This document shows positions 20,665-60,555 of a stretch of DNA of 64,000 nucleotides, piece by piece. Both the position numbers and the translations under genes were made by a program. The notes beneath the pieces are model-generated. The model made no database searches, was not told where the DNA came from, and was given only the letters and a program-made list of their open reading frames with translations. The stretch lies in contig JADDTR010000033.1 of the NCBI GenBank assembly GCA_015345905.1, positions 162,338 through 226,337 of the forward strand. The letters are read 5' to 3'. Positions within the stretch are counted from its first letter, which is position 1, and every line of letters starts with the position of its first letter. The stretch comes from Aotearoamyces nothofagi. Its lineage: Eukaryota; Ascomycota; Leotiomycetes; Leotiales; Tympanidaceae.

Positions 20665-22660
20665 AACCAGGCGGCGTGTTCCTCAACACTGACATACAGC
20701 ACCGTCAGGTCGCGCTCCGATCGCCTGGAGACATTTGCGCTGTCGCACGCGGGCGAGAGCTGCTCTTCTAGGAAGCATCTGACACTTCCACCGACCTCTT
20801 CGAGCAGCCCCAATGCGGCCGGCCCTTGTCCACGATTCCGTCAGCGATGCGGCGTAAGACGGATGTATGTCCTGCGGCAGATGCCACCACGCAGCCAGTA
20901 ATGCTCACGATAACCCGTCGAGCGGTTCAGCGTCTTGCTGCCGTCCCCAGCCCTTATCTTCGCCTCTCCTCTCTACGGCCCGGTCGCACAGCTCTTTACC
21001 GCTCTTTGCGGCCAATTGCTACCCTGATACTCTAAGCAGCAAACGGCTGGGAAGGTATAGAAATAGAACTGCCGCTGCAAAAGCTCGTGGTTCGTGGTCG
21101 CACCATGCAGGGCGTGGTGTCCAATGGCCTGCGCTTGGGGAAGCTATGGGCTGCCGGCCGTCGTTCCTGTCGTTCCTCGCCCACACAGAGCGGAAAACGC
21201 ACACTTCGCCCTCAGGAACAGGTCTAGCTCCAGGTCCCACGGCAAGACCAGCGCCCCTGGCGCTCCACGGCATCCTGGACGGTGCGTAGCGTCACTGGAT
21301 GACGCTACAGGGCCAGCCTGCATAAAGGGGTGGCCATTGAGTCCTGGCCAGCAATCCAGCGCTGCAGCGCTCCGGCGCTCCAGCGCTCCAGCGCATGGTT
21401 CGTCAGGCAGGTAGTCGAGCTCCCTTATGCATTTGTGGCATAGTCCTTGCAGAGGGCCAGCCCGCTGCAGGAATCGCACGGGCTTGACTCGTGAGCCTGG
21501 CAGCTTTGGGTCCTCGGCCAGCCGCCAGGCGTATTCCGTAGCCAGGTAGCCAGGCAGACGCTTCCAGCGCTTCTGGGTGGCCACCACCACAGCTTGTGGG
21601 CTTTGGCCGCCTCTTCCCTGCCAGAGAGCATCTCGAACTGCTCGATTCCATGCTTGGATCTGAATTGTGCGCCTCCAAAAGGCCGTTGCAGCTTATAGCC
21701 AAAGCCGGACGGGACACGCCGACAGCGATAAGCCAGTTAGCTTTGTCGCGCCGAACACCCGCATCAAGTCCATTCCTCTTGATAGCAAGGGGTGTCCCTC
21801 GTGCCTCGTAAAAGGTTACTCCATTGGTAGCGTGACAGCTGGGCGAAATATGTTTCAGCGACTTTGTGCCCTCTCAAAGCCCTTTTAGTCCATATTTCGT
21901 ACATCATGGAGCGGTCTATATCCAGACTTCCCGAGACCTTTGCTCCATTCTGTACTTTTGCCGTTTTGAGCCGTTCAGGGCGGGAGCAAGTTCGATCCGA
22001 CGACTCCGACCGACCGGCCGCAGCTCGCATAACAGACGCCGGACAGCTGTCAAACCCTGCAGAGAACCGTCTGGCGGTCTGACACGTCCTCCATTCCGAG
22101 CTCAAGCCAAAAGCGAAGTCCACACCAGGTAGCTTTACGCAGTATCCATTTCACAGTGCAACCGCCCCCCCAAGGAGTTGCCCTAAAGACATGAGCCTCA
22201 CGGGCTTCAGTGCTGAACCTAGCTACCAGGGCTCCCAAAGTCTCGCTCCTCAAACCATTCGCTTGAATCGCAGACGTCGCGCCCCAGTCGGAAGGGCAAC
22301 ATTTTTGGTTTGAGCCTAAATCGAACCCTTGAAGAAACGCGTCGCGCGATTTAGGATCTTTTGGTGATGACGATGAAACTCACATCACTATTGCTGGACT
22401 TGACCTCCGTAAACATTGCCGGTGTGGATAAGAAGGCCAGCATCACAAGCTTCTAACATGTGATACTCCTACACAGATCCAGAATACGCTATCTGCGGTA
22501 CAGATTAAGGCGCTTCTGTTAATTGCCTTGACAGATGTGTACGCCAAGGCTGCGTGCGCATCTAACTTACATCCGTATATTTTATATTATCTGTGCCGTG
22601 CTATCCTTGAGATAGTGCTTATATTGCAGCTCTTAATTCGATTTACATGGAGGGTTTTAC

Positions 22661-22726
22661 GGAAGCGTACTGACGATTAGACGAAGGCGATCCGGAAGCG
22701 TACTGACGATTAGACGAAGGCGATCC
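22661..22726. repeat. 33 bp perfect tandem duplication
   Basis: Two identical 33 bp units (22661-22693 and 22694-22726), each starting GGAAGCGTACTGACG and ending GGCGATCC, followed by the first four bases of a third copy. Perfect identity suggests a recent duplication. Non-coding context. Confidence 0.9.
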
Positions 22727-23253
22727 GGAATATGCACCAACCATGACTCTTTCTTATGTTTGTAATTCAATCCCATAAAAAGGTTGAATCCAGAAGCGGT
22801 ATGATATTTGCCAGTTTGAGGGTTTCTGTGATGCTCTAAAGAGCCGTGCTCCCTGACATCCACGTGTCCGTGGTTTGCGACACATGTTACGTGATCATCA
22901 TCCTGGCCATTCCCTAGTCGATAGCTTTGATCTAGACAAGATTTAAACTTGTACTGTACTGTACAAAGATATCTATCCCCTCCTCCCCAACCCCCCCTTC
23001 TTTTTTATGCTACCGTACCAAGTATGCCATTGGATCTCCGTGGACTCAAATAGTGCTGCACAATATATCTATCATACAGGAATAGTTCTAATATAATATA
23101 TAAGCAGTACAAGCCGATTCTATCTCACAATTAATTGTTTGTGACTGCCTTGCATACTATAATGGATGGAGCTCTAAATCTTCCCGTCCTTCTGTCGCCT
23201 GAGACGTGAGGGGGCTTGGGTTTTAGGATGCCATACGGTCTAGATTTTTATCT

Positions 23254-56782: not shown

Positions 56783-57123
56783 TTACATGACAGTGCATCC
56801 AGCGCCTCTGGGAGCTTGTTAGCAGAAAGGTCAGACGTAAGACAGAAAAATGAACTAGAAGACAGTTGTGTAGATATCTATCGGAAACCTTTTCAAATCC
56901 ATCTCGTAATAATTGAAATGACTTTGAACGAAAGGGGTACTTACGAGGTGCCACGCTGGACGACACAGCCGGCTCCAGATGTGCCTCTTTGGACAACACA
57001 TCCAGCTCCACTAGTTCCACGCTGAATTACACAGCCAGCACCACTCGTACCGCGAGAGATGACGCATCCAGCACCACTAGTTCCGCGGGTGGTGGTTTGG
57101 GTTTCCTTTGTTGAGCCAGGCAT
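56783..57123 (-). CDS. Five-copy CaaX lipopeptide (pheromone-like) precursor
   Basis: Two exons (57123-56945 and 56807-56783, intron 137 bp) give 67 residues. A 12-residue leader, MPGSTKETQTTT, has no signal peptide. Five consecutive 11-residue units follow, each RGTSGAGC plus three residues: CVIS, CVIQ, CVVQ, CVVQ and, at the very C-terminus, CTVM. Each fits a CaaX farnesylation motif (Cys, two mostly aliphatic residues, then Ser/Gln/Met) and is followed by Arg or the end of the protein. The intron interrupts the Ser codon of unit 5, so the terminal CTVM appears only after splicing. Leader style and terminal CaaX match ascomycete a-factor-type precursors (for example the Neurospora type ending in CVVM). 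Tandem CaaX units with basic separators recall hybrid-type precursors known from Trichoderma. Inferred product: farnesylated GTSGAGC. A Cys/Gly-rich structural peptide is the alternative. Confidence 0.75.
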
Positions 57124-58000
57124 CTTGATTGATTGGTTTGTGTTTAGTTGGGTTGAGTGAGTGGTAGTCTGGTAGACTGTAAGGTGATTTGAACTGAATG
57201 AGAGTGTGTTTGAAAAGAGAGTTCAGTGTTGAGTGATGATTGACGAGGAGAAGTGATAGGTCATCGAGGTATTTATACTCAGCTAGTAGCGTTGTTCCTC
57301 GGAGCGAATGCCCAAGCGGTTGCATCTTGCGATTGTTCAATTACTTGAACTATCTACTGTGGATTAAGTGAATTGGTAAAGGGAGAAATGAGAGCTGAAA
57401 GAACGGGCCTAAAAGCTGACACAGAAAGCAACGAAAACTGGGCTCGATGAGAACAGGAGCGCATTAGAAATGTCTCTAGAAACATTTTGACAGCCAAACA
57501 GAAACCCACCATATCCATTCAGAGCCATGATCCTTTGTGAGCAGAGTCAGGGATGCAGCAGTCTCGTAAAGTCCCGTTGTTAAAGTTGCTCAGCGCCGAG
57601 CTTTGAGATGTCGTTGATAATTTCGTCGCTTAACCCCTTAATATTGTTCTCCTTCATATTGTTATCAATGATCAAAGAACGAACGTCACAAAATAAACCA
57701 AACCAACGTTCCAGAAGATTTTCGGGTTGCAGAAAACCCGATATGGCATGGTGATAGGGAGAAATATATGAGATTATGTTCAAATCACAGGGGTGGCTGC
57801 AATATTGCATCTCGGGATGTCCGGCTCCAACGTCATCCTTTGGGTATCAAGCCACAGTTCTACGACTCGGTATGCTTAAAAGTCATACTCAAAGCGCTGA
57901 AGAGCCATTTCTGAAAATCCACTCCTCAAAGGCCACTCCTGAAGCATCACTCATAAGGATGTGGATCGTTTTTGGGGCAGGATATATTGAGTTGGGCTAC
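57124..58000. other. Spacer, CaaX-repeat gene / cyanase
   Basis: Spacer of 0.88 kb containing the promoter of the CaaX-repeat gene and the 3' UTR of cyanase; both genes are on the minus strand. An imperfect 20 bp palindrome lies near 57468-57487. No Ste12-type TGAAACA box was found by eye. Confidence 0.45.
57270..57277 (-). promoter_or_regulatory. Candidate TATA box of the CaaX-repeat gene
   Basis: TATAAATA on the minus strand, about 147 bp upstream of the ATG. The interval between is CA/CT-rich and ends CAATCAATCAAG just before the ATG, a leader style common in strongly expressed fungal genes. Confidence 0.5.
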
Positions 58001-58612
58001 TTAGAATCTCGAGAACGGAAGCCTGTTAGAAGTGATCAGTCAGTCATCCAACAAGCCGCTAGCAAAGAGCGCAACATACCATTTCCCTCTCAGTGTAATG
58101 ACAGCCCAGTTATTACCATCCTTGTCGGTCTCCTTTTCGACCTTTGTTGAGAAGCTAATCGCGCTCATAATACCATCTCCGAACTTCTCGTTCAACACTG
58201 CTTTGTAAGCATATCCGTAGTTCTGAACAATTTCATATAATCTGTAGATCAATGGCTCAACTGGAGGCATTGGTCCTGCACGGCCACGATCTGGGAAGCC
58301 AAGGAGTTGTTTCGATAGGATGGCCTCGTCGACGCTAAGGATTTTGGAGAGTTTCGAGACATCTTCGGGTGAGGCTTGTGCTTGGCCGTAGAAGAGAGCT
58401 GCAACGGCAACTTCGCTCCGGCCAAGTTCTTGCGCAATAGCCTCAAAGGTAAGCTTCTTCTCTGCTTTCGCATCAAAGAGTGTCTTTGAGGAGGCTGGCA
58501 AACGGTCAACGAGGGTGGTCTAGATGAGAGCACGTTAGTGGGGTTACAGTGGAGCATTTGGGTAATTGAGCTTTCTTACGTCGAGCACTGCGATCTTGGA
58601 GGTGTCGGCCAT
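58001..58612 (-). CDS. cyn: Cyanate lyase (cyanase)
   Basis: Cyanase converts cyanate plus bicarbonate to ammonia and CO2, detoxifying cyanate and releasing nitrogen. I place three exons at 58612-58580, 58519-58080 and 58022-58001, giving 164 residues. An N-terminal helix-turn-helix-like domain ([25 protein letters not shown]) is followed by the catalytic domain. Arg104, Glu107 and Ser130 align with E. coli Arg96, Glu99 and Ser122 at a constant offset of 8, in [19 protein letters not shown] and GIMSAISF. The tiny last exon supplies the end WLPFSRF, equivalent to the usual LPYKKW; without it the frame would read into intron sequence. The N-terminal exon encodes only 11 residues. Confidence 0.94.
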
Positions 58613-59853: not shown

Positions 59854-60555
59854 ATGGCTACCTCGCAACCTCTCACTAATGTTCCTCCTCCAAACGATGA
59901 GCAAGCTAAGTACCGGCAGCTCATTCACTACACCTCTCTAGGCGCCGTGATCGTGTGTCCCATAATCATGGCACTGCCACCACGAAAGTTTGACATCTAC
60001 ACTATCACCTTAATTGGCAGCACTGCATTGGGCGGCGACCAATTGATGCGCGAATACACCGGACGTTCGACTGTCGAGCGGATACAGCAGCGATTCAAGG
60101 CCGTGTCTAACAGTGTTGGCGGATTCGAGCTGCCAAGTGACCGAGCACGAGAAGTACAAGCACGGTTGAGAGAGGAGAGGCTCGCGCAGGCGCGGAAGAG
60201 AGAATTGCCAGGGACCGAGACTTTGGGACAGCTTGGCGCATTGGGAGCAGATGGGAAGCACGTACAGAGCAAGATCTCCGAAGCGATAGTGCAGGCGGCA
60301 GAAGAGCGGATACGGAAGGAGAAGGAGGGTGAGAAGGGCGTTCTTGAGAAAATCTGGATGGGGTCTGAGGGCAGTGATTGGAAAGCGAAGAGGGATGTGA
60401 AGGAGAAGGAGGCTCTCGAGGAAGGGAGGGGGTATGGAGACCTGATTATGGAGCAGATTTGGGAGGTGTGGAATTGGGGAAAGGGCACGGCAGAGGAGAT
60501 AAAAGAAGAGGACGAGAAGGTCGTCGCGGCGAAGATAGAAAAGAAAAAGGAATGA
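59854..60555 (+). CDS. Small fungal membrane protein (annotated elsewhere as rhomboid-family)
   Basis: Single-exon gene of 233 residues. Two adjacent hydrophobic segments lie at about residues 25-41 (YTSLGAVIVCPIIMALPP) and 45-62 (KFDIYTITLIGSTALGG), then a long, highly charged Glu/Lys/Arg helical tail (ERLAQARKRELPGTE, AAEERIRKEKEGEKG, EEIKEEDEKVVAAKIEKKKE). This LPPRK(F/L)DxYT pattern recurs in short fungal proteins labelled rhomboid family membrane protein, but no Ser-His protease dyad is visible, so the label is not a functional claim. The basic tail may face the matrix or cytosol. The start ATG is at 59854, context CACAATGG. Confidence 0.75.
   Translation: MATSQPLTNVPPPNDEQAKYRQLIHYTSLGAVIVCPIIMALPPRKFDIYTITLIGSTALGGDQLMREYTGRSTVERIQQRFKAVSNSVGGFELPSDRAREVQARLREERLAQARKRELPGTETLGQLGALGADGKHVQSKISEAIVQAAEERIRKEKEGEKGVLEKIWMGSEGSDWKAKRDVKEKEALEEGRGYGDLIMEQIWEVWNWGKGTAEEIKEEDEKVVAAKIEKKKE

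Follow-up and report, generated by a model that had tools for sequence, protein, structure and literature searches.

What is encoded by a small gene whose predicted product repeats one 11-residue unit five times, with a CaaX box closing every unit? The gene lies in the 64-kb stretch of Aotearoamyces nothofagi DNA analyzed here (the window), which forms the last 64 kb of the 226-kb contig C33 in an assembly of 25.5 Mb and 55 contigs. An a-factor precursor, the source of the ligand sensed by the receptor STE3, would be expected to be short and to end in such a box. Five boxes within one chain raise the further question of how the internal ones could be matured. We conclude that the gene is very probably a Leotiomycete a-factor pheromone precursor in five-copy form.

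Structure of the five-unit gene and selection on its repeat

The predicted spliced precursor has 67 residues, consisting of the leader MPGSTKETQTTT and five units of the form R-GTSGAGC-aaX (Table 1). The boxes read CVIS, CVIQ, CVVQ, CVVQ, and CTVM in unit order, with CTVM at the C-terminus. Hydropathy, the sole measure applied here, describes the leader as hydrophilic, and Ser or Thr fills 6 of its 13 positions. Sequence and predicted splicing together confirm the 67-residue protein of leader and five 11-residue, CaaX-ended units that had been proposed in the earlier note. The single Arg that it placed between units was also found, and the picture can be refined in one respect: an Arg stands ahead of every unit, the first as well as the other four, and none follows the last. 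Dibasic sites are absent from the whole precursor (0 in 67 residues).

Completion of unit 5 relies on the predicted intron. Eight AG acceptors were tried, and the one at 56808 was the only one to give a fifth unit with a CTVM stop. A branch-type CTAAC starts at 56822, 14 bases ahead of the last intron base. The unspliced reading yields 60 residues ending in RGTS with no terminal CaaX, its stop codon falling inside the GTAAGT donor. Retention of the intron (56944-56808) would leave a 60-residue chain with four internal boxes and no C-terminal one, a possible splice switch. On the 5' side, the gene has a CA-rich leader and AAG directly before the ATG.

Table 1. Features of the candidate precursor gene and its surroundings, with a second CaaX reading frame on another contig (window positions unless a contig is named)
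Feature	Position	Strand	Basis or remark
Candidate pheromone precursor gene	57123..56783	-	Two exons, 137-nt intron; splicing predicted from sequence
Exon 1: leader MPGSTKETQTTT, units 1-4, first 11 nt of unit 5	56945..57123	-	Sequence
Unit 1, RGTSGAGC-VIS	57055..57087	-	Sequence
Unit 2, RGTSGAGC-VIQ	57022..57054	-	Sequence
Unit 3, RGTSGAGC-VVQ	56989..57021	-	Sequence
Unit 4, RGTSGAGC-VVQ	56956..56988	-	Sequence
Intron, 137 nt, GTAAGT...CTAAC...CAG, interrupting a Ser codon of unit 5	56808..56944	-	Predicted
Exon 2: GAGCTVM (end of unit 5) and stop TAA at 56785..56783	56783..56807	-	Sequence
TATAAAT, promoter-like candidate, -154 from ATG	57271..57277	-	Sequence
Cyanase (cyanate lyase) gene, exons 58612..58580, 58519..58080, 58022..58001	58001..58612	-	Exons by eye
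Membrane protein gene; some of its relatives carry the name rhomboid family membrane protein	59854..60555	+	
L077 / L118, Ser-rich ORF, 53 residues, end CIECDGYECCCIPIPCVVM, stops in CVVM	G000:C12:72.6-73.2 kb		

Comparison of the units revealed how the repeat has changed. The core shows zero amino acid differences across the five units, and all amino acid differences among units are confined to aaX. At the nucleotide level, all 8 third-codon positions of the core vary between units, as against 3 of the 16 first and second positions, a pattern with a hypergeometric chance of 2.2e-4. The three exceptions are synonymous switches between Arg (CGN/AGA) or Ser (AGY/TCN) codons. Between-unit means were 0.75 for pS and 0.20 for pN, the latter arising in part from paths between the Ser codon boxes. 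As the core protein is invariant while all eight core codons have changed synonymously, the five-unit gene is a coding gene under selection. The final residue of the five boxes is always Ser, Gln, or Met, which we take to mark them as farnesyltransferase-type. One frame of exon 1 contains a run of four evenly spaced CaaX boxes, or five after splicing. In 60 first-order Markov simulations of the window, the longest such run was three in 1 simulation, two in 53, and one in 6.

The gene appears to be single in its genome. A protein-level search of the genome with the precursor returned one match, the gene itself, and the repeat DNA pattern occurred at two places in the genome, both within the precursor gene. 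No homologue was found at E 10 among 2574 word-sharing candidates scored from 5.8 billion proteins, which is weak evidence of absence because short genes are often left uncalled.

Genomic neighborhood and mating genes

The gene next to the candidate precursor encodes a complete cyanase in three exons, the main one matching Pfam PF02560 (E 1.1e-30). The cyanase stop codon and the pheromone ATG are 0.88 kb apart, with cyanase on the upstream side, and both genes are on the minus strand. Cyanate lyase is reported to have an a-factor gene close by or downstream in N. crassa, M. grisea, F. graminearum, C. globosum, and P. anserina, the downstream place being given for M. grisea, C. globosum, and P. 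anserina (PMC3068285). The repeated (h-type) precursor of Nectria haematococca sits between cyanate lyase and EBP2, and the order and orientation of genes at the locus vary (PMC3068285). EBP2 is not linked to the pheromone gene here; it lies on contig C12. We regard the cyanase adjacency as the strongest contextual evidence for the a-factor reading. It may be a coincidence, as of the two marker genes considered (cyanase and EBP2) only cyanase is shared with the Sordariomycete locus, the one kind of locus available for comparison. Our search of the open-licence literature found no description of a cyanase-linked pheromone precursor outside Sordariomycetes. In Cryphonectria barrages, cyanase and mf2 pheromone genes are both raised, with linkage not reported in the available part of that source (PMC7849911).

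Beyond cyanase lies the membrane protein gene of Table 1. The 1.5 kb at the contig end (62501-64000) has 22-27% GC against 47% for the whole window, with CTAGACTAG-like repeats near its end, and resembles a degraded repeat or subtelomere. A perfect 33-bp tandem repeat of 2.2 copies occupies 22660-22730.

A probable receptor for the predicted peptide is present. STE3 was identified from PF02076 matches in two exons of one locus (E 7.1e-61 and 7.5e-23), and we infer that this locus encodes the cognate receptor. STE2, like STE3, gave a match above the Pfam cut-off at one locus. The MAT region (G000:C10:357-370 kb) reads SLA2, a weak alpha-box match, an HMG-box gene, and APN2. The alpha-box match scored 25 bits, below the cut-off of 28.1, and has a stop inside it. 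The HMG-box gene is split across two exons, with a long ANGPV-type repeat ahead of the box. This arrangement may reflect either homothallism or a MAT1-2 region with a MAT1-1-1 remnant. An alpha-factor gene was not found with the single pattern CGxxGQxC, for which 16 matches (4 in the control) were obtained, none clustered by coordinates.

Protein matches place the organism in Leotiomycetes. By class assignments that we assume for most names and looked up for six, the named matches of the APN2 exon stay within Leotiomycetes until Candelina mexicana appears at rank 96 (best 120 of 1829 matches, 8000 scored), with top named identities of 61%. On the same assumption, those of the membrane protein are Leotiomycetes to rank 89, with Zalaria obscura, of another class, at rank 90; the first named match is Mollisiaceae sp. 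at 51% (best 120 of 310 matches).

Taken against the features of known a-factor precursors, the gene encodes a short protein with a terminal CaaX (67 residues, CTVM after predicted splicing), has a hydrophilic leader with no signal peptide by hydropathy, and shares its genome with STE3. The cyanase-linked place, a supporting rather than defining feature, is present with EBP2 unlinked. The GY motif near the CaaX, common though not universal, is absent from the GTSGAGC units. As in multi-copy, h-type-like precursors, each of the 5 units carries its own CaaX, one of them C-terminal. HPP1 in the strict sense has three copies of (L/I)GC(T/S)VM; here GC-TVM occurs in unit 5 only. The multi-copy, farnesylated a-factor-type precursor suggested in the earlier note is supported by the cyanase place, the synonymous-only divergence of the core, STE3, and the single genome match. 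Counted against the a-factor reading are the lack of a homologue among the scored proteins, the unlinked EBP2, the variable order of the cyanase locus, the alpha-factor not found with the one pattern, the missing GY, and the presence of a second CaaX ORF, described below.

Other CaaX genes and competing readings

The first a-factor candidate described for Leotiomycetes is the BCIN_13g03330 family, found in at least 111 of 124 species (PMC10569646). Its members have 45-64 residues, a Ser/Thr-rich start, and CTVM as the commonest end, with GY near the end in 87 of the at least 111 candidates (PMC10569646). Mating-type exclusive expression was absent in the three species considered; one of these was sampled for a single mating type, no expression at all was seen in another, and transcripts of the MAT genes were scarce (PMC10569646). 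The authors argue that their candidate may not serve mating, name the limits of their method, and discuss a-factor roles outside mating (PMC10569646). Compared by description only, the family resembles our precursor in its Ser/Thr-rich start, CTVM end, and size; it differs in the GY motif of 87 species and in that repeats do not figure in the available part of its description (PMC10569646).

We scanned the genome for C-x-[VIM]-M-stop, a pattern that omits ends such as CTIL and Ser coded by TCN. The scan gave 91 rows, compared with 56 in the reversed control. Reading of 82 rows yielded 80 true matches, including the present gene; the other 9 end in TGG, with no stop. GY stood within ten residues before the Cys in 5 of the 80 true matches (L064, L085, L110, L093, and L077). 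L064 and L085 were rejected as published-type candidates, having no ORF of 20-100 residues. L093 (49 residues) was dropped, its leader not being Ser/Thr-rich by eye. L110 was the sole match to the single-copy Sordariomycete-type pattern GYCxxM-stop, with 1 match in the reversed control, and was rejected because a stop codon stands immediately ahead of its GY. From its upstream reading, we take a further row, L056, to be the tail of a Ras-type protein. Another Cys-rich CaaX tail was seen in L109 (G000:C29:172.8 kb; protein end PEEPKKESGCGCCIVM), where the open frame continues upstream.

The remaining match, L077 on C12, has GY near its end, a Cys-rich tail, and no repeat, with TATA-like and CA-rich sequence upstream; no Pfam match was found for it. 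Its features agree with those published for the Leotiomycete candidate, and the genome may therefore hold both a published-type gene and the five-copy gene. Their presence in one genome would allow both a-factor candidates to be tested side by side.

These observations bear on three competing explanations of the five-unit gene. One, which we consider unlikely, is that it encodes a small CaaX protein unrelated to mating (e.g. a structural protein anchored in the membrane or a factor that senses density), and that the true a-factor is instead encoded by the published-type gene on C12. The 53-residue C12 ORF, Ser-rich with GY and a CVVM end, does fit the published description, and non-mating roles of a-factor have been discussed (PMC10569646). 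Yet the mating role of the published candidate is doubted by its own authors, on thin expression data (PMC10569646), and the C12 ORF has a Cys-rich tail and no repeat, whereas the present gene has both a cyanase neighbor and a multi-copy layout. A KEX2-processed repeat RiPP or an alpha-factor-like secreted precursor would likewise show tandem repeats flanked by a basic residue. Such precursors are recognized by a signal peptide and dibasic Kex2 sites, neither of which was detected. The leader has no hydrophobic stretch by hydropathy, single Arg residues take the place of dibasic sites, and a CaaX closes every unit, making this assignment very improbable. We give still less credence to a chance repeat or a pseudogene. 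Although no homologue was found, divergence in the core is synonymous only, one acceptor of eight brings back unit 5, the CaaX spacing exceeds that of all 60 simulations, and TATA and ATG contexts are present.

The a-factor reading of the five-copy gene may have consequences for the whole class. We offer tentatively, as the less probable case, that the true Leotiomycete a-factor is a fast-evolving multi-copy CaaX gene beside cyanase, as in Sordariomycetes, and that BCIN_13g03330-type genes encode a different small CaaX protein. The Leotiomycete a-factor would then have been overlooked because it is tiny, spliced within its last unit, and undetectable by homology. If so, Leotiomycetes and Sordariomycetes would have inherited the cyanase-linked place from their common ancestor, and the last-unit intron would act as a splicing switch between chains with and without a terminal CaaX.

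Proposed maturation of the internal copies and comparison with known precursors

Farnesyltransferase reads CaaX at a free C-terminus; therefore, a cut must expose the internal copies. Under our model, the cytosolic precursor would be cut at the Arg opening each unit, after which each exposed CaaX Cys would be farnesylated, its aaX removed, and the Cys carboxymethylated. The product would be as many as five copies of one lipopeptide, GTSGAGC (or RGTSGAGC), which would leave the cell with no need of a signal peptide and be recognized by STE3. Arg stands before unit 1, where there is nothing to expose, and is absent after the last unit; we therefore take it to signal cleavage at the N-terminal end of every unit. 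Were the chain cut on the N-terminal side of Arg, the preceding piece would already end in a usable CaaX, while cutting on the C-terminal side would call for one Arg to be trimmed away.

Two orders of processing can be envisaged. All cuts may come first, with the units then matured in parallel. Alternatively, in a C-to-N cycle, the terminal unit would be matured first and then released, which would uncover the next CaaX and yield one lipopeptide at a time. We lean slightly toward the cut-first order. The two make different predictions: were the terminal box lost, whether through mutation or through a retained intron, a C-to-N cycle would leave all units silent, which cut-first processing would not. 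The enzymes maturing rhodotorucine A are reported as not known (PMC3068285), as is the further processing of the Huntiella pheromone protein (PMC10182648). Five identical, Arg-led units would offer a clean substrate for learning how the internal copies are cut loose and come to be prenylated.

Within an a-factor reading, it is also conceivable, though we think it the poorer account, that the terminal CTVM unit alone gives rise to pheromone and that the internal units form an unprenylated, repeat-expanded pro-region. The established need of farnesyltransferase for a C-terminal CaaX agrees with this. Trichoderma HPP1 functions with Kex2 sites that are non-essential (PMC3068285), and CTVM is the commonest end among published Leotiomycete candidates (PMC10569646), unlike the four internal boxes. 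However, residues of the farnesylation type are kept in all four internal boxes, and units 1-4 share an unchanged core although their codons have diverged synonymously, where a passive pro-region should drift.

The idea that the layout stands apart from known systems beyond Trichoderma was not supported by comparison with Verticillium dahliae Ppg2, Huntiella, Ceratocystidaceae, Nectria haematococca, and rhodotorucine A. The five-copy layout itself is already known from other fungi. In rhodotorucine A precursors, the spacer consists of aaX plus one basic residue. These precursors, from Rhodosporidium toruloides, also have tandem copies with CaaX-like spacers and are processed to several peptides; they differ in belonging to a basidiomycete, in encoding another peptide, and in coming from several genes (PMC3068285).

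The h-type precursors (HPP1 of Trichoderma reesei and Fusarium relatives) share with ours a CaaX- or CpaX-ended repeated motif and no signal peptide, and HPP1 is essential for T. reesei male fertility (PMC3068285). They differ in having three copies of their motif and in belonging to Hypocreales, and the T. reesei gene is not by cyanase (PMC3068285). Huntiella peptides open with Arg, and their box changes between repeats (PMC10182648). Each copy in Huntiella and other Ceratocystidaceae has its own CaaX or CpaX (PMC10182648, PMC13037118), and a Ceratocystidaceae gene gives one to five mature peptides, each 7 to 10 residues long (PMC13037118). In contrast to our gene, Huntiella has CpaX boxes and genes said to be intronless (PMC10182648). 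Both groups have several genes per genome and belong to another class (PMC10182648, PMC13037118), and their loci lie by tubulin and a nucleolar protein, or by laccase (PMC10182648).

VdPpg2 of V. dahliae has 66 residues and five repeats of an 11-mer, with internal CaaX-like motifs, a terminal CaaX, and no predicted signal peptide (PMC11077750). Its synthetic unit NGGGHSGCAIM is likewise laid out as 1+7+3, and its eighth residue is Cys (PMC11077750). V. dahliae is a Sordariomycete, and its putative processing residues are Lys and Asn, in place of Arg here (PMC11077750). By eye, the quoted unit and RGTSGAGCVVQ are identical at G2, G7, and C8 only. With 3 of 11 residues in common with this one unit, common descent of the repeat cannot be claimed. 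No description of a repeated a-factor precursor in a Leotiomycete was found in the open-licence literature. Set beside these systems, what is new here is the cyanase-side place of a five-copy precursor in a Leotiomycete.
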